Origin: a bacterium
Lineage (GTDB): Bacteria > SZUA-182 > DTGQ01
Direction: 5' to 3'
Assembly: GCA_023512255.1 (NCBI GenBank)
Contig: JAILZY010000005.1
Location: forward strand, 18,306-82,305
DNA: 64,000 bases
Under the pieces are notes generated by a model. That model did not search any database. It saw only the letters and a program-made list of their open reading frames with translations, and was not told the DNA's origin. Below are positions 17,559-28,272 of this stretch, in pieces (the first letter of the stretch is position 1; every line of letters starts with the position of its first letter). The position numbers were made by a program, and so were the translations under genes.

Positions 17559-17588
17559 TTGACAGGCCTTATGATTTTTCACTATAGT
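17559..17588 (+). promoter_or_regulatory. Putative promoter of the sigma/CHAT operon
   Basis: A perfect TTGACA (17559-17564) and TATAGT (17583-17588) are spaced by 18 bp, about 250 bp before the sigma-factor gene. The rest of the 17348-17842 gap is AT-rich leader with one short frame at 17753. By sequence this is the best promoter in the region. Confidence 0.55.
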
Positions 17589-17752
17589 ATGGTTAGGTAT
17601 TCAGAGATCTTGAAGTTTGAGGATATCTTTTTGAATATATCTTAAAATTTGACTACAGGCTGTTATGTTCCGAGTAGACAGAGAAAGAGCGAAAGTTAAT
17701 AAAAAGTTAAATATTTTATAATATATTTATTGATATAATTTAGGAGGCACAA

Positions 17753-17839
17753 GTGAACAACGTCGGCTATCTGCAGAGTCTTTTGGCCACTAAGGAATTG
17801 TTTTCTACAAAACGGATACACTGGATAATAGGGCTATAG
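17753..17839 (+). CDS. Candidate 28-residue leader peptide upstream of the sigma factor
   Basis: A GTG follows TAGGAGGCACAA, a much stronger ribosome site than the sigma-factor start has. The frame runs 28 codons (VNNVGYLQSLLATKELFSTK and then RIHWIIGL) to TAG 17837-17839. The sigma-factor ATG is 3 nt later in the same frame. It could be a coupling leader, a decoding-controlled extension or a recently mutated N-terminal part of the sigma gene. Unknown function. Confidence 0.4.
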   Translation: MNNVGYLQSLLATKELFSTKRIHWIIGL

Positions 17840-17842
17840 CTT

Positions 17843-18466
17843 ATGAACACTCTGGCGCAACAAGATGGAGAGATTACCAGTTTTCTGGAGGCCTGCATAA
17901 ATCGGGATGAGCATGCTTGGGATGAATTTATTGCTAAGTACAGCAAGCTGATATACAATTATATTATCAAAACTCTCAAGAGATATAATTTTCAATTTCA
18001 ATCGGATGAGCTGGAAGAAATCTACAACCGGATTTTTGCCGCTCTTTTAGAGAATGATTGTCGTCGACTGCAAAATTTTCGGGGGACAACCGAAAAGTCA
18101 TTTACCGCTTATTTGCGTGAGATTTGTTTTCACAACACGGTTGATTTTCTTAGAGAGAGGAGATTTTTTCTGGATATTGAGGAGGTCCCAGAAAGCTCCT
18201 CAACGGAGTCAGGGTATGATAATCTTGAATTGAAGCAACTTCAGAATATTATTGGGGAATTGAAAAAAGAGCTGAATCCTCGGCACAAACTTTTCTTCAA
18301 ACTGATCTTCGAGGAAGAACTCCCCTCTGATGAGGTGGGAAGGATTATGAACCTGAAGCTGAACGCCATTCACCAGTTGAAGTTCCGGCTGATTAATAAG
18401 CTTATTCAGATTGCTAAGGAGAAAAATTTATATCGCGATTTAGAAACGTTCATAAGAGATCTTTAG
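17843..18466 (+). CDS. ECF-like RNA polymerase sigma factor
   Basis: An alternative sigma-70-family factor of 207 residues. Region 2 spans about 25-105: DEHAWDEFIAKYSKLIYNYI, then ELEEIYNRIFAALLE, and LREICFHNTVDFLRERR, which matches the core-binding and -10-recognition helices. Region 4 (about 135-200) has a helix-turn-helix with PRHKLFFKLIFEEELPSDEV and LNAIHQLKFRLINKL. It opens a plus-strand operon; the anti-sigma-like gene follows after 60 bp, then the CHAT protease gene. The local ribosome site is weak, so expression may depend on the leader frame upstream. The sigma call is firm; the targets are unknown. Confidence 0.82.
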   Translation: MNTLAQQDGEITSFLEACINRDEHAWDEFIAKYSKLIYNYIIKTLKRYNFQFQSDELEEIYNRIFAALLENDCRRLQNFRGTTEKSFTAYLREICFHNTVDFLRERRFFLDIEEVPESSSTESGYDNLELKQLQNIIGELKKELNPRHKLFFKLIFEEELPSDEVGRIMNLKLNAIHQLKFRLINKLIQIAKEKNLYRDLETFIRDL

Positions 18467-18526
18467 GTTGTTCGTCTATCTTGGTGATGTTAAACTTAAA
18501 AGAGTCCACCTGATAAGGAGTTAATC

Positions 18527-19237
18527 ATGGAAAGAGATATTGAAAAATTTGCTGAGGTACTGCACTGTATCTCTCCTCGAAGGAGGGGAATCGCACCCCG
18601 CTGTACTCCTGATTGCTTGACTGAAGAAAGGTTAGAAGCGTATTACCAGGGGACCTTACCCAAACCTGAAGGAACGAAGATTGAAAACCATCTCCTTACC
18701 TGTCGATATTGCTATGACAGGCTAATCATTTTAGATCAATTTATGACCGGAGAACAAGTTAATGTACCGCACAGTCTCATGGTCAAAGCCAAAGAGGCTG
18801 TTTTCAAAAATTCCAATCGAGTTCTGGAAATCGTTTTGAGTATTACCCAAAAAGCAATCAGGATTATTAAAAATACCGGAGAGTTACTGACTCCAGCCCC
18901 CATTTTACAGCCTGCCCGAGGACGAGAGGATAAGATCAATCAGGGCCAATTGTCCGATTTGATTATGATCTCCAAGGAATTCAACGATCTGAAAATTGAT
19001 GTTCAGATCGAGTGCATTAATGATTCTTATAAGGTCATACTTAATGCCTCAGATCCAATCAATCAAACACCCCTGACCGGCGCTCGGCTAGCCCTTTTTT
19101 CGGGTGGAAGAGAGATCAGCTCCGTCGAGGACAGTGAAGCTCTGTTTTACCTGAAGCTGAGAAAATACCTCATCAAGGTCCTCTTTGAAGACCGGGAGCT
19201 AGGCCAGATTAGGTTGGATTTGCGAAAAGAATCCTGA
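18527..19237 (+). CDS. Anti-sigma-factor-like zinc-finger protein
   Basis: A 236-residue protein without a membrane helix. Residues about 30-70 resemble the zf-HC2 anti-sigma domain: CLTEERLEAYYQGTLPKPEG, then IENHLLTCRYCYDRL, giving the H-x3-C-x2-C zinc knuckle that holds ECF sigma factors. A middle helical segment (80-125) and a beta-rich C-terminal region (about 145-236) follow. An SD-like AAGGAG lies upstream of ATG 18527. Its position between the sigma factor and the CHAT protease suggests it binds the sigma factor and is the natural candidate substrate of the protease. That last point is inference. Confidence 0.72.
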   Translation: MERDIEKFAEVLHCISPRRRGIAPRCTPDCLTEERLEAYYQGTLPKPEGTKIENHLLTCRYCYDRLIILDQFMTGEQVNVPHSLMVKAKEAVFKNSNRVLEIVLSITQKAIRIIKNTGELLTPAPILQPARGREDKINQGQLSDLIMISKEFNDLKIDVQIECINDSYKVILNASDPINQTPLTGARLALFSGGREISSVEDSEALFYLKLRKYLIKVLFEDRELGQIRLDLRKES

Positions 19238-19322
19238 TGAATCTGATGAGTAATCCTGATAAATAGAGAATTCTTAGCCGAGGGAAAGAGTTCACAACTT
19301 TTTGTAGTCTGGGAAACAAGCA

Positions 19323-21581
19323 ATGAAAGAGGCGCTCTTTTTAGAAATATCTCGAAAAGCCGACAATCTGGAAATTAGTCTTAGTGAAGGCGAGCAGACG
19401 GTAACTCATTATGAAGAATGCCGCCTACCAAGTTCTGATCTGGAGCGCAGATGCAGAGAGCTTCTCCATCTTTTGAATGCCGTCTCCCGTCACGGGAAAA
19501 TTCCAGTTAAGATCTTCCACGAGCTTCAGCAGATGGGGCAGGTGCTCTACAATGAAATTTTCCCACTCAGTATCAAAAAAGAGCTTGCCGAGACCTCGGT
19601 CGAAGATATTATTCTGAAAATTGATAACCGCCTGGTGCAAGTTCCCTGGGAATTGATCTACACGGGGCGAGAGTTTTTTTGTGAGCGATTCAATATTGGT
19701 CGTATCGTTAAGACCCAACAGGTTATTGCCTCGGGCGGGATCAAGAAAGAGCTTCATCCTCCTTTGAACATGCTTATCATTACCGACCCAAAGGGTGATC
19801 TGCAGTCGGCCTATGAGGAGGGAAGCCTTATTCGGGAGAGCCTGAAGCAGAAAGCGATCAATATTACCCTGGTCAGCTCTGAGGTAAGCGTTGATTATCT
19901 GAAAAAAAAGTTGCTTCAGTTTGATCTCATTCACTACGCAGGCCATGCAGATTATAATCTGGATGATCCCTCGACTAGCGGATGGATCCTTGAGGATGGG
20001 AAATTTACTGCCCTAGACATCCATAAACTTTCCGGCACTAGTCCTATGCCTGCCTTAGTATTCTCAAATGCCTGTCAGTCGGCTACCACTGAAGAATGGC
20101 AAAAGGGAACTACGGATGGCGAAAAAATCTACGGTTTAGCCAATGCCTTTCTACTGGCTGGAGTGCAGCATTATATCGGCACTTTCTGGAAGGTGCTGGA
20201 TACGCCGAGCACAAGCTTTGCCATTGAGTTTTATCGTCAACTCCTAAGCGGCCACAGTATCGGCCAGGCCATGAGATCGGCCCGTATGTCCCTCAAAGAG
20301 CGCTATGGTCGGGAAAATATCCTATGGGCAAGCTATCTGCTCTACGGAGATCCGACGGCTAGATATTTTGAATTATCCAAGAAAGATGATATGTCGCGTC
20401 GGGATTTTCAAGCTACCTCTTGGGCGGCCTCCCTTTCTCCTCAGCTTACCTCTGCCTCTTGTGGCCCTTCTTCCTCCTGGAATCCGGCCACAGAATGGCT
20501 GATCCAGGAAAAGAGCCGAGGAGGGGGCCTATTATGGAAAACACGCTCTCCCTCAGAGCTTATGGAGCGCAGTTGGCAGGCGGAAAAAGAGTGTCAGCAA
20601 AGCAGCGAGGCGGCAAAGGAGAGCAAGCCTGAACAGCGTGGTCGATCTCGCCTATGGTACAGTGCGGCTACTGTGGGAATGCTAGCAGCCGTCGGCCTTC
20701 TTTTTTCCCTTTTTCATGGAGAAAAGGATAGGTCTTCGCTCATCTCGGCTATCCTAAGCGGCAGATGGACTACGGTCAAGGCTGTCGATCAGCAACAGCC
20801 TTATAATTTGGCCGAAATCTTTAAAGATGAAAATTCGTTGATGAACTTTTTTCAAGGGCTGGTCAGGCAATATCAATGGGCGGCAGAGAGAGCAAAAGGG
20901 CCGCTAGATGAGTGGAGTTCACGCCCCTTGACGCTTTTTTTCTATACTCCGCAAGGAAATACTGAAGGACGGATCCAGGTTCTGACTACCAAGATTATGG
21001 CTCGGTTAAATAAAGATGAGCGTCTTAAAGTTATAGAGCGTGCAGAATTTGAAAGCCTCATTCAGGAGTTAGCCATATCTTCTTCCCCTTTGGCGAATAA
21101 AAATTTTGCCCTGAGGACTAATGAAATGGTATCGGGGCGTCTGTTGAATATTTGTAGTATTTATCAAGATGGATCAAAGTTACAGCTTATCATGCGTCTG
21201 GTTGAAAGTGAAACCACAATTGTGAAAGCTGCCCTATATGAAGAGTGGGAAAACGAAAGCTCGACTGAGGTGATAGCTGATCGCCTGGTTCAAAAACTTC
21301 TTCAGGTCATTGATGAGAAATTCCCATTGAGAGGGAAAATTAGTTATGTAGTAAATAGTAATAATGTTAAGCTCAATATCGGGGCCAGGCAGGGTTTGAA
21401 ATCAGGAACAAAACTCAATGTCTTTAAAGATCAACGCATAACTCAAGATGGAGAAATCGTTAGTGAAGAGAGTGTTAAAGTTGGGGAACTTGAGGTTTCC
21501 AAGGTAACAGAAGATTGCGGCTACGCGAAAGTCCTGAGTAAATCCGAAGACCTGGCAGTCGGTATGAAAGTTATTCCTTAA
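19323..21581 (+). CDS. Membrane-anchored CHAT-domain protease with C-terminal CsgG/FlgT-like region
   Basis: CHAT proteins are caspase/separase-like cysteine proteases. Of 752 residues, about 110-355 form the CHAT domain, with catalytic His208 in LIHYAGHADY and Cys251 in VFSNACQSA. Supporting motifs are VPWELIY, GLANAFLLAGVQHYIGTFW and ASYLLYGDP. A charged linker (about 360-440) leads to one membrane span at about 444-466 (LWYSAATVGMLAAVGLLFSL). The C-terminal 280 residues contain a CsgG-like part (TTKIMARLNKDERLKVIERA) and a FlgT-C-like beta domain (VKLNIGARQGLKSGTKLNVF). No signal peptide precedes the CHAT domain, so it should face the cytoplasm and the C-terminus the periplasm. It is the third gene of the operon. 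Confidence 0.85.
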   Translation: MKEALFLEISRKADNLEISLSEGEQTVTHYEECRLPSSDLERRCRELLHLLNAVSRHGKIPVKIFHELQQMGQVLYNEIFPLSIKKELAETSVEDIILKIDNRLVQVPWELIYTGREFFCERFNIGRIVKTQQVIASGGIKKELHPPLNMLIITDPKGDLQSAYEEGSLIRESLKQKAINITLVSSEVSVDYLKKKLLQFDLIHYAGHADYNLDDPSTSGWILEDGKFTALDIHKLSGTSPMPALVFSNACQSATTEEWQKGTTDGEKIYGLANAFLLAGVQHYIGTFWKVLDTPSTSFAIEFYRQLLSGHSIGQAMRSARMSLKERYGRENILWASYLLYGDPTARYFELSKKDDMSRRDFQATSWAASLSPQLTSASCGPSSSWNPATEWLIQEKSRGGGLLWKTRSPSELMERSWQAEKECQQSSEAAKESKPEQRGRSRLWYSAATVGMLAAVGLLFSLFHGEKDRSSLISAILSGRWTTVKAVDQQQPYNLAEIFKDENSLMNFFQGLVRQYQWAAERAKGPLDEWSSRPLTLFFYTPQGNTEGRIQVLTTKIMARLNKDERLKVIERAEFESLIQELAISSSPLANKNFALRTNEMVSGRLLNICSIYQDGSKLQLIMRLVESETTIVKAALYEEWENESSTEVIADRLVQKLLQVIDEKFPLRGKISYVVNSNNVKLNIGARQGLKSGTKLNVFKDQRITQDGEIVSEESVKVGELEVSKVTEDCGYAKVLSKSEDLAVGMKVIP

Positions 21582-21614
21582 AAAACAACCTCAAGGTCGA
21601 AATACACAAAAGCA

Positions 21615-23693
21615 ATGAACAGCCAAGGTAGGTTTACACCGTTGTTTAAAATAATACTCGGGACAATAGCGCTCATTTTGTTAGCCCTCCAGTTTGGATG
21701 TGCAGTCAAGGCTGGTCCGATTTACCACAAGGGAGGAAGGGAATATGGGCGGATTAAGGGTATCTGGGGAAGTACCTTCTGGAATTACTATGAGCGGGGG
21801 CTCTCCTATGCTGAAGGAGAATTCTGGACCGAAGCCATCCATGACTTTCAGCAGGCCATCCGGTTAAAAAATCAAGACCAACGCCGGGTGCGCACCTATG
21901 GTCTCCATATCCTCGACGACTACTTCCCCCATCGGGAGATGGGCATTGTCTACTACGCAATGGGTGATTATCAAAAGGCTATTCAAGAGCTCTCCCTCTC
22001 TCTGAAATACTATCCTTCCGCCAAAGCCAAATATTATTTGAACCGATCCCGCCAGGCTTACTTGCAGCAGAGAGGGCAGGATAAGGCTTGCCCGCAAATC
22101 TTATTTACCTCCCATCGGGATCAGCAACTGGTGAGTGGATTTGAGGCCCTGATTGAAGGCCGGGCAAGTGATGATTGTTTTGTTGAAAAAATTATGATTA
22201 ACGGCACCCCCTATCTGTGTGAACTTGCCCAGCCAGAGATTCCCTTTTCGGCCACCGTTGATCTTGAGCCCGGAGTAAACGAGATTAAGGTCGTGGCTAA
22301 AGATCTTCTTGGCAAGGAAACCGTAGCCAGCCTTCATCTGATCGCTGATCGACAAGCTCCACTGCTCTATGTTGAGGATCTGCGGATCATGCCGGCGGCT
22401 GGAAATGAGGGTCGCTATCCTGGTGGGGAAATTCAAATTGAAGGGCGGATTAAAGATTTAGCCGGAGTCCGAAGTTTTCAGATTGACCAAAAAGAGGTCC
22501 CACTCCATGGAGCGGAGGGAAGGTTCCTCTTCCGCTCTCCCCTGATTGAATCAAGATCCTTTCTCCCCTTTACGGCCGAGGATCGTTTGGGGAATCGGGT
22601 AGAGGGGCAAATCGGGATCGAGACAGATCAGCAAAAGGAGTATACTTTTTTGCCGCGGCTAGTCAGGGTAGCCTCTTTGCGCTTGGCTGGAGTTGGCAGC
22701 TTCAGACAGCAAGGGGAAAGTAGAGATCTTCAGCCACCCACTATACGCATAGATTCGCCCAAAGGGGATCTTGTTGTAGATTGGGAATCTGTGTTCGTAT
22801 GCGGTGAGGTTCAGGATACCGGAGGTATTCGAGATATCTTGATTAATCATGAATCTGTCATGGCTGGAGAGGGAAAGAGGATTTATTTTAACCATATTTT
22901 TAAATTGCCACCAGGGAAGACTACCATCACCATTCAAGCCATAGATCGAGCTGGCAATGAAAAGACAAAATCGATCACTATTGAGCGCAAAATCAATCCG
23001 GTCCGCCAGATTGGCGCCAGAATGAGTCTGGCCATTATCCCATTTACCCAATACGGGAAAAATGAGCCGGGAGGGTGGAATTTGGTGACTGATTTTCTGA
23101 TCAAAGCCTTTGCGGATCAAGAGCGATTCTTTGTGGTTGATCGGCAAAGGATTGATCAGGTTTTGCGACGACTGAAGAAGGATGATCCTGAAAATCCTGA
23201 GATTTCGCCTCGGGAGTTTGGAACGATGGTTTGTGCCGAAACAATTCTGGCCGGGCATGTCTACGAAAGCAAGGGATTCGTTGAGATCGCTGCCCGGCTG
23301 ATCGATACTGAAACCTCGGTCATTCTGGACTGTCAAGATGTCTATGGGCCCGAAGACTCAGAGAGTCTCAAAACCCTTCTTGAGGGATTGGCTCTAAAAT
23401 TCAAGCACAGCTTTCCGCTGGTTGAAGGAATGATTGTGGAAAAAGAGGGGCAGAGCATTTTTGTCAATCTTGGCAAGGAGAAAAATATTAAGGAATTTAC
23501 CAAATTCATCGTTTTTCGAGATGGCAGGCCGCTAATCGACCCACTTACCAAAAAGGTGTTGGAATACCGGCCTGATATCCTAGGAGAGGCTAAGATCGTC
23601 AAGGTTTTTGAGCAAACTTCACAAGCTGATCTAAGGATTAAGGATCAACAAAAAGATACTGTCCGGGTTAAGGATCGGGTTATTACCAAGTGA
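21615..23693 (+). CDS. TPR lipoprotein with Ig-like segments and a CsgG/FlgT-like domain
   Basis: A 692-residue envelope protein. The signal peptide ends with lipobox LQFGC (Cys29), so it is a lipoprotein. Two or three TPR-like repeats occupy about 58-150 (YERGLSYAEGEFWTEAIHDF, then MGIVYYAMGDYQKAIQELSL). Beta-rich Ig-like modules follow (about 165-465). A CsgG-like region begins at about 475 (LAIIPFTQYGKNEPGGWNLV, VVDRQRIDQVLRRL, AETILAGHVYESKG), and a FlgT-C-like end starts at VEGMIVEKEGQSIFVNLGKE. The last two modules echo the end of the CHAT protein 34 bp upstream, so the two may share a ligand or complex. This lipoprotein could be the periplasmic sensor part. Confidence 0.75.
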   Translation: MNSQGRFTPLFKIILGTIALILLALQFGCAVKAGPIYHKGGREYGRIKGIWGSTFWNYYERGLSYAEGEFWTEAIHDFQQAIRLKNQDQRRVRTYGLHILDDYFPHREMGIVYYAMGDYQKAIQELSLSLKYYPSAKAKYYLNRSRQAYLQQRGQDKACPQILFTSHRDQQLVSGFEALIEGRASDDCFVEKIMINGTPYLCELAQPEIPFSATVDLEPGVNEIKVVAKDLLGKETVASLHLIADRQAPLLYVEDLRIMPAAGNEGRYPGGEIQIEGRIKDLAGVRSFQIDQKEVPLHGAEGRFLFRSPLIESRSFLPFTAEDRLGNRVEGQIGIETDQQKEYTFLPRLVRVASLRLAGVGSFRQQGESRDLQPPTIRIDSPKGDLVVDWESVFVCGEVQDTGGIRDILINHESVMAGEGKRIYFNHIFKLPPGKTTITIQAIDRAGNEKTKSITIERKINPVRQIGARMSLAIIPFTQYGKNEPGGWNLVTDFLIKAFADQERFFVVDRQRIDQVLRRLKKDDPENPEISPREFGTMVCAETILAGHVYESKGFVEIAARLIDTETSVILDCQDVYGPEDSESLKTLLEGLALKFKHSFPLVEGMIVEKEGQSIFVNLGKEKNIKEFTKFIVFRDGRPLIDPLTKKVLEYRPDILGEAKIVKVFEQTSQADLRIKDQQKDTVRVKDRVITK

Positions 23694-23711
23694 GGTGTGC
23701 GGGAGAGAAAG

Positions 23712-25070
23712 ATGGAAAGGGCAAGAGCAGTAGAGATGAGAGCGACGAAAAAAAGATGTTTTATCCCTTGGGGCCTGGCCTGGATAGTGGCAGGAATATG
23801 GTTATTATCTTCTTGGTGTGGCTATGCGCAAGAGCCAATACCCACCTCACCCCCAGTGCCTGTAGGTTCGGGAGCTAGGGCTATGGGCATGGGGGGAGCC
23901 TTTATTGCTGTGGCCGATGATGCCACCGCAGCCTCTTGGAATCCGGGCGGACTTGGCCAGCTGCAGCAGCCAGAGATGTCGGTTGTGGGAAGTTATTTTT
24001 TACGGCAAGAAGACTATAGCGGTAATAATGTGGAAAATATGGGTAGCTCTCGAAACTCTTCTTCGGACCTAAACTACTTCAGCCTGGCCTTGGCTGGAAA
24101 CATCTGGCAGAGAAATTTATTTTGTTCTCTCAATTACCAGAAATTATTCGACTTTAGCCGAAGCGTCCAATGCGGTAGCCGTACACCTGATAAAGAAGGT
24201 GGTACAATTAATGCCATAAAAAACGATTTTAAGCAGCAAGGCTCTCTTTATGCTTACTCTCCAGCTATAGCTGTGGAATGGATCCCGGGCAGTCTATATG
24301 TTGGTTTGGCTTACAATCTCTGGTCAGATAATTATACTCACCAAAGCCGGTGGGAGAGCTTTAACCATGGGTCCACTAGTGGTCAAACTTTTAGTAGCTG
24401 GGACACTAAAGAAGTCTATAAGGATTTTCATGGAGAAAACTGGACTTTCGGCTTATTGTGGAAGCTAAACCCGCAGCTCCAGTTAGGTGGGGTATACAAA
24501 ACTCCATTTAAGGCCAGGGTAAGATACGAGAGATTTGATGAGTTCCCCGGTGGAGCATGTACTGAGAAGAAAATATTACACATCAATTTCCCTGTTGCCT
24601 ATGGGGTTGGGCTTTCATACAAATTGGGGAATTCCTGGACCTTAGCTGGAGATGTTACCTATACCAGATGGCAGGATTATCAGATTTCAGATTCAGGTAC
24701 AGTAAGAGGGCCTTTTGTCAAAAAGTCCGGCCAATTACCGGAGAAGGATCCTACCTATACAGCTCGCCTGGGAGTAGAATATGCTTATATCTTGGATGAG
24801 AAAGACCTGCTCGTTCTTCCTGTTCGGCTTGGGGTATTTTATGATCCTGAACCCTCGGTCAAAGCTCCTCAGGATTTTTATGGGCTAAGCTGTGGCTTTG
24901 GAATAGCCGATAAACGATTTTCATTAGATTTTGCTTATCAATTTAGAACTGGAACACCGGTTAATTCAATCGAGCTTGGCCTCGATCCGGCTCAGGTGAT
25001 CAATAAGGGGGATGAGGGAAAAATCCGGCAACATTTTTTCTTAACCTCTCTTATTTTTTATCGCTTTTAA
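23712..25070 (+). CDS. Outer-membrane beta-barrel protein, FadL/PorV-like
   Basis: A 452-residue protein with a signal peptide (about 12-41). Next comes GSGARAMGMGGAFIAVADDA and then TAASWNPGGLGQL, the N-terminal hallmark of the OmpP1/FadL/PorV superfamily. The rest alternates beta strands and ends LTSLIFYRF, with the C-terminal Phe typical of BAM-assembled barrels. ATG 23712 has GGGAG 6 nt upstream; GTG 23697 is an alternative start. It follows the lipoprotein by under 20 bp, so it belongs to the operon. FadL-type proteins move hydrophobic molecules; PorV-type proteins serve secretion. Which applies here is unknown. Confidence 0.8.
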   Translation: MERARAVEMRATKKRCFIPWGLAWIVAGIWLLSSWCGYAQEPIPTSPPVPVGSGARAMGMGGAFIAVADDATAASWNPGGLGQLQQPEMSVVGSYFLRQEDYSGNNVENMGSSRNSSSDLNYFSLALAGNIWQRNLFCSLNYQKLFDFSRSVQCGSRTPDKEGGTINAIKNDFKQQGSLYAYSPAIAVEWIPGSLYVGLAYNLWSDNYTHQSRWESFNHGSTSGQTFSSWDTKEVYKDFHGENWTFGLLWKLNPQLQLGGVYKTPFKARVRYERFDEFPGGACTEKKILHINFPVAYGVGLSYKLGNSWTLAGDVTYTRWQDYQISDSGTVRGPFVKKSGQLPEKDPTYTARLGVEYAYILDEKDLLVLPVRLGVFYDPEPSVKAPQDFYGLSCGFGIADKRFSLDFAYQFRTGTPVNSIELGLDPAQVINKGDEGKIRQHFFLTSLIFYRF

Positions 25071-25356
25071 TGAAAGATTTCTCTGGAGAAACTATTTTGA
25101 TCTAAGAAAAAAAATGCACATATGAATTTTATTTCAGAGTAGGGCCTATCTATGCAAAGTTAAGTGAGGCAATAAAAAATTCTTACTTTTAAATTACAAG
25201 GGGTTAAGAAGATAACAATTCTTTTCATATGCCTGTGATGGCAGGCACTGATGTTGCAAGTCGAAGTTTGAGCTTGGAGCTTGATCTTGTGTTTTATCCA
25301 GAAGCGAGATAAGGCAAGGTGCAGCTTTAAGTTGTTGGTTAGGAAGGTATGAGACG

Positions 25357-28044
25357 ATGAAGGCAGCGGTTCAGAGAGGATGGGTATATATAATTATCTT
25401 ATCGATTATCTTAACTGGCTTGCATAAGATCGCCTATGCTCAAATGATGGTTAAGGATGCGGCAGGGGCAAGTGCTTCATTAGCTGCTATGGCCAATATT
25501 ATAACTAATATGGCATCTTCTCAATCCTTGCTGGGATTAGGGGGGATAGATTCATCATCTGTGCTGGCGGCAGACCCTTCCTTGTTAATAGGTGGTGGTC
25601 TTTCTTTGGCTATGGGGCTAAACCCTGCTTTGGCTTCCTTTGCTTCGCCCTCGGCTATTAGCAATGATCCTCTGATGGCGGCCTCAGCTGCCTTGTTATC
25701 TCAATCTATAGTTGCCCAGTCTATGGTGGGCCTATCTATGGCGGGAAGTGGAATAGGAGGCGCCGCGCCTATAGCAGCAGGTCTGGGCGGAAGCTCTCTA
25801 GCGGGAGATGCAAATCTTTTGATGAACCCGTTTAGCTTAGGTGCAGGGCTTTTCCCTGGTTTAGGAGGGGCATTAAGTAATATCTCCTTTTCTATGCTAC
25901 CCAGTTTATCGCTTCTTTCAAGTCAAGGCAAAGGGATAAGCCCTTTATCTGCTCTCGCTTCTACTCTGATGACTATTCCATCTCTTAATCCATTTGTCCG
26001 GCCACCATCTCTACTCCCCTCATGGCAGCAAATGGGTGGATATCAATATGGGAATTCCCTTTTGGGTATGCCGCCTATGGGAAGCCCACAAATGATAGGT
26101 GCTCTCCCAGGCGGGGGATATGGCTACAGTGGATATTCGCCTTTTGTCTCTCCATATATTTTACCGGGGGGGAATATCTCTTCGATTACACAAACTAGAT
26201 TAGGAGCCTCTTCTGGAGGAAGTGTCTTCCCTTCTCAGGGGCTGTCTAGTCCCGGTGGGTTGATTACTGGTACTGGCGGAACGATCGGGATCACTGGTAC
26301 TGGGCTCCCAGTTACTGACCTCTATGGTAGCATGATATCATCTCCGGTAAACCTAGCTTACTTATATACTATTAGCCTGGCCAATGAATATAATAAAATA
26401 TCGATCCGAGGGGTAACCATTTTTGGCACAGTTAGGGACCAGGAAGGGGAGGGGATAGGAGGGGTTACTATTAACATTTATTATAAAGGCCAGCAGCAGG
26501 TAGGACATTCCTTGATAAGTAGAGATTCTGATGGATACTATGGCCAGAGTGCGGTTTTTCTGGGGGATGAGTGTTCAGTAAAGATTTTTTATGAGGATAA
26601 ATCCACTAGCTATAAGATGCTTCCTTTTGTGGGACCTACAAGGTGTGACTTTCTCCTGGGCCCAGGTATGGTCTTCGATGAAATTACAGGCATTCCCTTG
26701 AAGGGGCTAAATGTTGTAGCCATATACCAGGCCAACCCTAATTTAGAAGCCCAAACAACCACTGATGCCGAGGGGAAATATCAGCTTTTTCTTCTGCCGG
26801 GAGACTATAATATAACAATATATGACAATCAGGGTAGTACTCTTATTCCGCCTAGGGTGGTAAAAGTTCCTTCAACAGAAAGCAAAGAGCTAAAATTTGC
26901 CTTAAAGCTGCCGCAATTTTCCGGCAAGGTGGTTGATATCATCGATCATCATCCTATTAAGAATGCCCAAATTAAGGTTATTCCGATAGCGAATAAAGAG
27001 GTTGTGCTTCCTATGGGTGATACAATCAATACTGGAAATATGGGTGAGTTCATGATACTTCTTCCGACAGGAAATTATCAACTTGAGATTACCAGTAATG
27101 GATATCAGAAGAAGATTATTCCTAATGTTAACATCTCTGGGACGATCAAGGATTATCTCATCGAGTTAACAGAGGTGGAGGTGAGTCAAAGGCCGAAAAA
27201 CACTCCACCAATTATAACCTCACCCAAGGATGGCCAGGAGATAACGGTCAAAACAGGCGATGAGCTTTGCTTTTTTGTGAAAGCGCAGGATAATGAAAAC
27301 TCCTATCTATACTATACGATCTTAGGGCCAAAGGGTTGGCCAAAACTTGACAAGGTGGGTGGGGAATCAGGAAAAGAGTATCGGTATTCTACCACCTTGG
27401 CTGATCTTGGCGAATATACCTTCGAGATTACGGTTTCTGATTTAGGTTTATCCACTACGGCTCGTATTAAGGTAGTGGTCCAGTATCCTATCCAGCTTAC
27501 ATTGGTCAAAGGGATGAATTTGATCAGCTATCCCCAAGGGCCGAAAGATGCTGTTAATTTCGCCTTTGATTTGCTCTCCTTTTTGGGAGATGCCAATTGC
27601 ATATCCAGCATCGGCAAATACGATTCAGAGCAGGGGGTCTACAGCAAGGCCGTGATTACCAAAGACAGGAAAAAGAGTGGGGATAACTTTTCCATCAGCA
27701 GTCAGGAAGGGTATGCTGTTTATGCCAAACAGCCGACTACCATTAACCTGAATATCCGACAAGGCAATATTACCTCCTGCACACTCAATCTCAAGGAGGG
27801 GATCAATTTGGTTGGTATACCCGCAGTTTTAGGGGATCAGTATTCCTCTCATGATCTTTTGCTTGATCTTGGTCAGGATACGGCGATTAGTATCTGGCGC
27901 TATAATAAGTTAAGGGGAGAATATGAGTTCACTTACTGGCTTGGAAATCATCCGGCGGGAGTGAATTTTCCTATTCGGATAGGAGAGGGATATTTTATCC
28001 ATACAAGAGCTGAAAAGCAGATTTCTCTGCCGATGCTGCACTAG
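25357..28044 (+). CDS. Large secreted protein with three carboxypeptidase-regulatory-like domains
   Basis: The 895-residue protein begins with a signal peptide (1-29). Residues 30-350 are low-complexity, rich in Ser, Gly, Ala, Leu, Met and Pro (runs such as GLGGIDSS and GGGYGYSGYSPF). Three carboxypeptidase-regulatory-like beta-sandwich repeats follow at about 354-440, 440-520 and 521-610 (GTVRDQEGEGIGGVTINIYY, TTDAEGKYQLFLLPGDYNI and SGKVVDIIDHHPIKNAQIKV). An Ig/cadherin-like module is at 615-710, and a C-terminal domain begins LVKGMNLISYP. The N-terminal composition resembles the small secreted proteins at 46.9-48.1 kb. A 286-bp gap separates it from the barrel gene, so it may have its own promoter. 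It is probably a surface or matrix protein. Confidence 0.72.
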   Translation: MKAAVQRGWVYIIILSIILTGLHKIAYAQMMVKDAAGASASLAAMANIITNMASSQSLLGLGGIDSSSVLAADPSLLIGGGLSLAMGLNPALASFASPSAISNDPLMAASAALLSQSIVAQSMVGLSMAGSGIGGAAPIAAGLGGSSLAGDANLLMNPFSLGAGLFPGLGGALSNISFSMLPSLSLLSSQGKGISPLSALASTLMTIPSLNPFVRPPSLLPSWQQMGGYQYGNSLLGMPPMGSPQMIGALPGGGYGYSGYSPFVSPYILPGGNISSITQTRLGASSGGSVFPSQGLSSPGGLITGTGGTIGITGTGLPVTDLYGSMISSPVNLAYLYTISLANEYNKISIRGVTIFGTVRDQEGEGIGGVTINIYYKGQQQVGHSLISRDSDGYYGQSAVFLGDECSVKIFYEDKSTSYKMLPFVGPTRCDFLLGPGMVFDEITGIPLKGLNVVAIYQANPNLEAQTTTDAEGKYQLFLLPGDYNITIYDNQGSTLIPPRVVKVPSTESKELKFALKLPQFSGKVVDIIDHHPIKNAQIKVIPIANKEVVLPMGDTINTGNMGEFMILLPTGNYQLEITSNGYQKKIIPNVNISGTIKDYLIELTEVEVSQRPKNTPPIITSPKDGQEITVKTGDELCFFVKAQDNENSYLYYTILGPKGWPKLDKVGGESGKEYRYSTTLADLGEYTFEITVSDLGLSTTARIKVVVQYPIQLTLVKGMNLISYPQGPKDAVNFAFDLLSFLGDANCISSIGKYDSEQGVYSKAVITKDRKKSGDNFSISSQEGYAVYAKQPTTINLNIRQGNITSCTLNLKEGINLVGIPAVLGDQYSSHDLLLDLGQDTAISIWRYNKLRGEYEFTYWLGNHPAGVNFPIRIGEGYFIHTRAEKQISLPMLH

Positions 28045-28165: not shown

Positions 28166-28200
28166 AGGGGAAAACCCTTTTTCAAAAAGGGTTTTCCCCT
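28166..28200. terminator. Near-perfect 35-nt palindromic hairpin
   Basis: A 17-bp stem, AGGGGAAAACCCTTTTT against AAAAAGGGTTTTCCCCT, has a one-base centre. TTATTAAAAGTTTTAGG precedes it by a few bases. The same arrangement occurs twice at 49.57-49.69 kb. It lies between the secreted-protein gene and the radical SAM gene and probably terminates or protects the upstream transcript. Confidence 0.5.
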
Positions 28201-28272
28201 AAACTTACAGGGTTTTTCCTCAAACTTATAGGGTCTTCCCCTTAAACTTACAGGCTTTTCCCCTCAACTTAC
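28183..28272. repeat. Short tandem array with a unit of about 22 bp
   Basis: Four imperfect units of the form AAACTTACAGGGTTTTTCC recur from the right arm of the hairpin onwards (AAACTTACAGGG, AAACTTATAGGG, AAACTTACAGGC and AACTTACTTCCC, each followed by a TTTTCCCCT-like block). Each unit repeats the hairpin-arm sequence, so the array probably grew from it by slippage. Confidence 0.6.

Follow-up and report, generated by a model that had tools for sequence, protein, structure and literature searches.

Release of a sigma factor by a protease is textbook knowledge for membrane anti-sigma factors, and has newly become known for CRISPR proteases. In the type III-E CRISPR Craspase (Csx29, Csx30 and CASP-sigma; PMC10028731) the protease is of the CHAT family, while the type III CRISPR system CalpL/CalpT/CalpS (PMC11417357) uses a Lon-SAVED protease. 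Beyond CRISPR, HetF of Anabaena, a protease with the layout CHAT, transmembrane helix, TPR, cleaves the inhibitory regulator PatU3 (PMC8406250, PMC12288457), and a review of the extracytoplasmic function (ECF) group ECF54 describes CHAT genes near sigma factors without an anti-sigma factor (PMC8999054). Here we describe a locus in a 64,000-nucleotide stretch ("the window") of contig JAILZY010000005.1, part of a 3.8 Mb draft genome, in which an ECF-type sigma factor (SIG), a soluble zinc anti-sigma protein (ASIG) and a membrane-anchored CHAT protease (called CHAT below) are encoded in succession. The locus is probably a membrane-tethered protease switch for the sigma factor, in which a signal from the envelope would lead CHAT to cut ASIG at Arg131 and thereby free SIG. 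If this is true, the protease acting as membrane receptor, outside any CRISPR system, would be a third design for such release. No description of the SIG-ASIG-CHAT trio was found in the open-access literature searched; the papers on ECF reclassification and on DdvA, which lie outside that set, could mention it. The trio and the parts of ASIG are, in window coordinates:

17843..18466, + strand: SIG, ECF-type sigma factor, 207 aa (TIGR02937, Sigma70_r4)
18527..19237, + strand: ASIG, soluble zinc anti-sigma protein, 236 aa (weak zf-HC2, family profile, model)
18614..18811, + strand: zinc anti-sigma domain of ASIG, ligands C30, H55, C59 and C62, helices to residue 95 (ligand columns, model)
18875..18958, + strand: disordered loop of ASIG, residues 117-144 (model, sequence variability)
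18917..18919, + strand: ASIG Arg131 codon CGA, candidate P1 residue (conservation)
18959..19228, + strand: C-terminal beta-sandwich domain of ASIG (strands 145-234, mostly at a predicted local distance difference test score, pLDDT, >90)
19323..21581, + strand: CHAT, membrane-anchored CHAT protease, 752 aa (PF12770, model, fold matches)

The CHAT alignment was scanned against about 85,000 species genomes, and 80 loci were obtained, with a CHAT open reading frame (ORF) called in 79. An ASIG gene lies immediately upstream on the same strand in 58 of these 79, accompanied by SIG in 50. The gap between ASIG and CHAT has a median of -3 bases; the genes usually overlap or nearly touch, as expected for translationally coupled genes. 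The loci are spread over four phyla, Desulfobacterota (with unassigned delta-type metagenome-assembled genomes, MAGs), Nitrospirota, Omnitrophota and Schekmanbacteria; the matched relatives include one Candidatus Schekmanbacteria MAG, and all five Omnitrophota loci carry the full trio. Within the window's own small phylum, with nine genomes to compare, the longer order SIG-ASIG-CHAT-TPRL-PORV-CPREG, which takes in three envelope-related genes treated below, is identical in the window and four relatives, whose SIG proteins are 93 to 52% identical to that of the window. An accident of one genome was considered as the source of this neighbourhood and rejected, the order being present in five genomes and the trio across four phyla. 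A first, sequence-only reading of this DNA had proposed to look in related genomes for the same gene order, and for the core SIG-ASIG-CHAT the order clearly recurs.

Variants of the arrangement are common. The same lineage also has shorter paralogous modules, either SIG-ASIG-CHAT or CHAT beside SIG-ASIG (L068, L069, L071, L074), and at another locus (L072) a sigma-like protein of 399 aa is followed by ASIG-CHAT. A search of 290 genomes with the ASIG profile revealed further modules, some of them ordered CHAT-SIG-ASIG. The complete genome of the cultured Desulfonema magnum (NZ_CP061800.1) holds at least three SIG-ASIG-CHAT modules (L102, L133, L153), and paralogous switches can therefore coexist within one cell.

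SIG matches TIGR02937 over residues 24-189 (E 1.6e-17, 63.6 bits against a cut-off of 42.9), that is, above the curated cut-off and across regions 2 to 4; it also matches Sigma70_r4 (1.4e-6), and its family profile matches SigW, RpoE and others in the PDB. Hydropathy gave no membrane span in SIG. The single ASIG protein matches zf-HC2 weakly, at E 0.002 and 18.6 bits against a curated cut-off of 22.2; the profile of its family (62 rows) matches the anti-sigma chains of RsiW (E 5.8e-4), ChrR and DdvA. The motif H-x3-C-x2-C is present together with its upstream ligand, here a Cys (C30), and the zinc-ligand columns are retained in 93-95% of 61 ASIG sequences. As inferred from this family, ASIG would hold SIG inactive in the cytoplasm by means of the zinc helical domain. 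No hydrophobic span was found in ASIG by hydropathy, as the sequence-only reading had held, which sets it apart from the membrane-spanning anti-sigma factors of the RseA type.

The AlphaFold2 model of ASIG (pLDDT 85) consists of the zinc helical domain (residues 33-95), a short beta pair (99-116), a segment without secondary structure (121-144, with pLDDT 52-55 over 121-140) and the C-terminal beta domain. The fold neighbours of the last are Ig-like or macroglobulin-like, with Z up to 8.3, a resemblance to common Ig-like folds only; a Foldseek search with the ASIG model returned nothing at E <0.001. It is the loop between the two domains that holds the candidate cut-site residue. In a set of 39 non-redundant ASIGs, less than 40% identical to one another (aligned ASIGs average about 24% identity), Arg131 is present in 38, ranking second after Y214 and above the zinc ligands, and the sole exception has an Arg nearby (FARTHG). 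No other position of the loop is strongly conserved, the next being G132 at 67%. Its context is [VILAF]-R-[GS]: P2 is nearly always V, L, A, I or F, and P1' is G or S in 31 of the 38. A near-invariant Arg in a disordered and otherwise variable loop, with a hydrophobic P2 and a small P1' residue (G or S), has the make-up of a motif recognised by a protease, and from alignment and model Arg131 looks like the site at which CHAT would cut.

The loop Arg is also present at two loci of another build (L193:6643-9805 and L194:130-3376), where a CHAT protein with a membrane span is followed by a small exported thioredoxin-like ORF and then by SIG and ASIG; the CHAT protein of L193 ends in PEGA. An ASIG that has the Arg and no CHAT (L192, in genome G056) was considered as a true exception and set aside, being best explained by the end of the contig; the next ORF there is a cyclase domain resembling the N-terminus of the cyclase-CHAT proteins described below.

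The corresponding features of the protease are:

19650..19652, + strand: CHAT Glu110 (PWE motif), candidate acid of the S1 pocket (invariant; PWE shared with separase)
19944..19946, + strand: catalytic His208 codon (80/80 sequences)
20073..20075, + strand: catalytic Cys251 codon (80/80 sequences)
20199..20201, + strand: CHAT Asp293, candidate second acid of the S1 pocket (79/80; start of helix 293-308; aligns with the Asp of separase LWDVTD)
20643..20717, + strand: single transmembrane helix of CHAT, residues 441-465 (hydropathy 446-464; model helix)
20919..21578, + strand: predicted periplasmic CsgG/FlgO-like and FlgT_C domain of CHAT (FlgT_C 3.8e-6; fold matches)

PF12770 matches residues 70-343 of CHAT at 8.7e-37 (127.6 bits, cut-off 24), and His208 and Cys251, which the sequence-only reading had named as the catalytic pair, were correctly chosen, being invariant in the 80 sequences. 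The CHAT part of the model is mostly at pLDDT >90, and its closest folds are separases (Z 26.0, 3.5 A over 305 residues), followed by Csx29 (24.5), gingipain R (20.8) and DdvA (20.3); the separase profile PF03568 (C50) gives 21.8 bits on CHAT, below its cut-off of 27.8. Separase and gingipain R both cleave after Arg, and in a published separase model the P1-Arg is recognised by a Glu that follows the first strand together with an Asp that opens helix 4 (PMC4626109). In human separase these stand in PWE and LWDVTD, and the two fragments used as queries were matched in PDB chains with full or almost full identity. In the CHAT family there is a PWE with the invariant Glu110 and a W-x-V-x-D-like stretch with Asp293, and a separase-like Arg pocket made by these two acids is therefore predicted, their equivalence to the separase acids resting on motif and position rather than on superposition. 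The cleavage after Arg that is predicted for the protease thus fits the one feature conserved in the loop of the inhibitor. This is a correlation and not a proof; together, the near-invariant Arg and the predicted pocket lend independent support to the proposed cutting of ASIG by CHAT.

The topology is compatible with such a cut. CHAT has only one membrane span, much as the sequence-only reading had placed it (about 444-466): 446-464 by hydropathy and a helix at 441-465 in the model. In 70 of the 79 homologues the span likewise follows the CHAT domain, and in these 70 proteins the mean number of Lys and Arg residues is 4.6 before the span vs 2.8 after it. A class III cyclase domain lies N-terminal to CHAT in 36 of the 79. 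Cyclase domains use nucleotides. By the positive-inside rule and from these fusions the CHAT domain is predicted to be cytoplasmic, in agreement with what had been proposed. The part after the span has the envelope proteins FlgT and TolB among its fold matches, and homologues match CsgG, another envelope protein; these predictions support a periplasmic location. The window's own genome has in addition a protein built as cyclase, CHAT, span and CsgG/FlgT-like domain without an adjacent ASIG (G000:C147; L065:6468-9761).

These elements suggest the following sequence of events. The zinc helical domain of ASIG would keep SIG inactive in the cytoplasm, while CHAT would sit in the inner membrane by its one helix, protease inward and CsgG/FlgT-type domain in the periplasm. 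A signal from the envelope or surface, probably relayed by the products of TPRL and PORV, would activate the CHAT domain, which would then cut ASIG after Arg131 in the disordered loop, as motif and predicted Arg pocket suggest. After the cut the anti-sigma domain and the beta domain would no longer be joined, and the leftover inhibitor fragment would lose its grip or be degraded, leaving SIG free to direct transcription of its regulon. A further degradation step has been discussed for Csx30 and CalpT, and by analogy there may be one here as well.

Several points weigh against this interpretation. In the closest mechanistic relative, Csx29, no single residue is essential in the loop of Csx30 that is cut (PMC10028731), so that not all CHAT proteases are specific for Arg at P1, and Arg131 could be conserved for some other contact. 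The loop Arg is absent from three zinc anti-sigma proteins that have neither the beta domain nor a CHAT neighbour, a control that speaks for cleavage, but these proteins are few and more distant. The conservation of His208 is partly selected, because the pattern by which the loci were collected itself includes the His motif. Finally, 21 of the 79 CHAT loci have no adjacent ASIG (several of these end at contig edges or place ASIG elsewhere, and others show no visible ASIG partner), and a second CHAT of the window's genome is likewise without a visible partner.

Among other explanations, the one that survives best, though we consider it unlikely, is control of ASIG by binding: CHAT, by its protease domain or its membrane anchor, would recruit the ASIG-SIG complex to the membrane, with the Arg as a docking residue, and release would follow a change of shape. 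Binding of Csx30 to Csx29 is indeed separate from its cleavage (PMC10028731), and the beta domain of ASIG is well folded and conserved and could serve as the docking part. Yet binding alone would need neither the catalytic pair nor the candidate pocket acids, which are invariant or nearly so, and an Arg in a disordered loop beside G or S is typical of a cut site. Slightly less probable again is that ASIG senses redox state or zinc in the cytoplasm, in the manner of RsrA/ChrR, and that CHAT, made from the same operon, has other substrates, for instance as a stress or death protease induced by SIG. Redox sensing is frequent among soluble zinc anti-sigma proteins (PMC7406223) and CHAT proteins do exist without an ASIG neighbour, but neither the near-invariance of the loop Arg, above that of the zinc ligands, nor the tight coupling of ASIG to CHAT across phyla is explained in this way. 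That CHAT cleaves the sigma factor itself and keeps it off, as reported to have been proposed for ECF54 with its nearby CHAT genes (PMC8999054), is very improbable, as inspection of the SIG alignment revealed no invariant Arg or loop that stands out and there is here, unlike in ECF54, a dedicated anti-sigma gene. A receptor protease that cuts ASIG is the most economical account, a plausible mechanism that the independent evidence strengthens.

The remaining features of the region are:

17559..17588, + strand: sigma70-like operon promoter, TTGACA-18-TATAGT (11/12 consensus positions)
21615..23693, + strand: TPRL, exported TPR protein, probable lipoprotein (TPR_2, Glucodextran_B, weak CsgG and FlgT_C)
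23697..25070, + strand: PORV, outer-membrane barrel protein (PF03349, OMPP1/FadL; PorV_fam)
25357..28044, + strand: CPREG, large exported protein with carboxypeptidase-regulatory-like repeats (PF13620, 4.2e-23)

The coordinates confirm the five ORFs from SIG to PORV where the sequence-only reading had put them, all on the + strand, and its starting point at 17559 is meaningful in that it coincides with the sigma70-like -35/-10 pair, the boxes of which align in two relatives (G002 and G003). Back-to-back with this promoter, on the minus strand at 17499-17470, is one with all 12 of 12 sigma70 consensus positions that faces a peptidyl-prolyl isomerase gene. The five-gene operon stood as to its order and was incomplete, since CPREG is also kept, as a sixth gene, in the five-genome lineage.

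TPRL has TPR_2 and Glucodextran_B matches and a C-terminus that is weakly CsgG/FlgT_C-like; as this end resembles that of CHAT, the two proteins could meet in the periplasm. Its description as a TPR lipoprotein held for the TPR part, while the lipobox is atypical in the window (LQFGC) and standard in some relatives. The barrel protein proposed to follow it was recovered in PORV, with OMPP1/FadL and PorV-like matches (PF03349 at 4.8e-10; PorV_fam at 3.9e-15, below its cut-off). A TPRL homologue is found near 47 of the 79 CHAT loci, a PORV homologue near 38 and one or the other near 51.

The leader of CPREG (25071-25356) contains a block, TGCACATATGAATTTTATTTCA, and a second one, AGGCA-TTGATGTTGCAA, kept in about 4 of 5 relatives; an Rfam search of this leader gave no credible match. 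A common ECF promoter motif was sought ahead of both the operon and CPREG and none was clear, only the conserved block before CPREG, and the conserved leader is one candidate target of SIG. A short tandem repeat with a unit of about 21 nt lies at 28172-28271, between CPREG and the next gene.

In a wider frame, and more tentatively, with the odds in our view somewhat against it, the locus might represent a widespread and undescribed class of transmembrane separase-like receptors, consisting of a periplasmic sensor, a helix and a cytoplasmic Arg-specific CHAT domain (often with a cyclase) whose substrate is a soluble zinc anti-sigma protein, cut at an invariant Arg; Craspase would then be a captured version of an older and more general signalling module. 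If true, this suggests a possible origin for Craspase and gives a function to many of the CHAT proteins found in environmental bacteria. From the fusions of cyclase to CHAT one may suspect that some receptors have two outputs.

Craspase shares with this locus the joint encoding of CHAT protease, inhibitor and ECF sigma factor, a similar CHAT fold (Z up to 24.5) and cleavage of the inhibitor at one point within a flexible loop, with Arg131 as the candidate here. It differs in that the TPRs of Csx29 precede its CHAT domain and that activation is by Cas7-11 and RNA. The CHAT domain of the window protein is N-terminal (or, in relatives, follows the cyclase), starting near the N-terminus with no TPR region before it or elsewhere in the protein, and is membrane-anchored with a predicted periplasmic domain. 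The inhibitor here belongs to the zinc anti-sigma proteins, and no match of ASIG to Csx30 was detected. The type III-E sigma model NF041236 gives 30.3 bits on SIG against a cut-off of 100. No array-like repeats were found at 8000-34000, only the spacer-less 21-nt tandem and two-copy repeats, a genome-wide search for cas genes not having been made; PADLOC yielded only a weak BovA match. Direct membership in the type III-E CASP/Craspase systems was rejected on the sigma model and the lack of an array. The comparison with Craspase made in the sequence-only reading stands as an analogy of mechanism, and falls short where a CRISPR-like array, a TPR before CHAT or a Csx30 match would be expected.

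CalpL/CalpT/CalpS has the same three-gene design of protease, anti-sigma protein and ECF sigma factor, but the protease CalpL is activated by cA4 and has neither a CHAT domain nor a membrane-receptor layout. Separase gives the best fold match to the CHAT domain, and the predicted P1-Arg specificity comes from the PWE and W-x-V-x-D positions that the two share; separase itself is a eukaryotic cohesin protease, and its C50 profile stays below cut-off on the window protein. DdvA/DdvS of Myxococcus xanthus (PDB 8rot, 8rw5) brings together a zinc anti-sigma domain and a CHAT domain in an ECF system, but in a single transmembrane chain with CHAT at the C-terminus, whereas here each has a protein of its own and the span comes after CHAT. 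HetF, with a CHAT domain, one membrane span and a further domain, provides a precedent for the topology of the window protein, though its further domain is a TPR instead of a CsgG/FlgT domain and no sigma/anti-sigma pair is known with it. In DegS/RseA/RpoE and other cases of regulated intramembrane proteolysis it is the anti-sigma factor that spans the membrane, whereas in the locus described here the protease spans it and ASIG is soluble.

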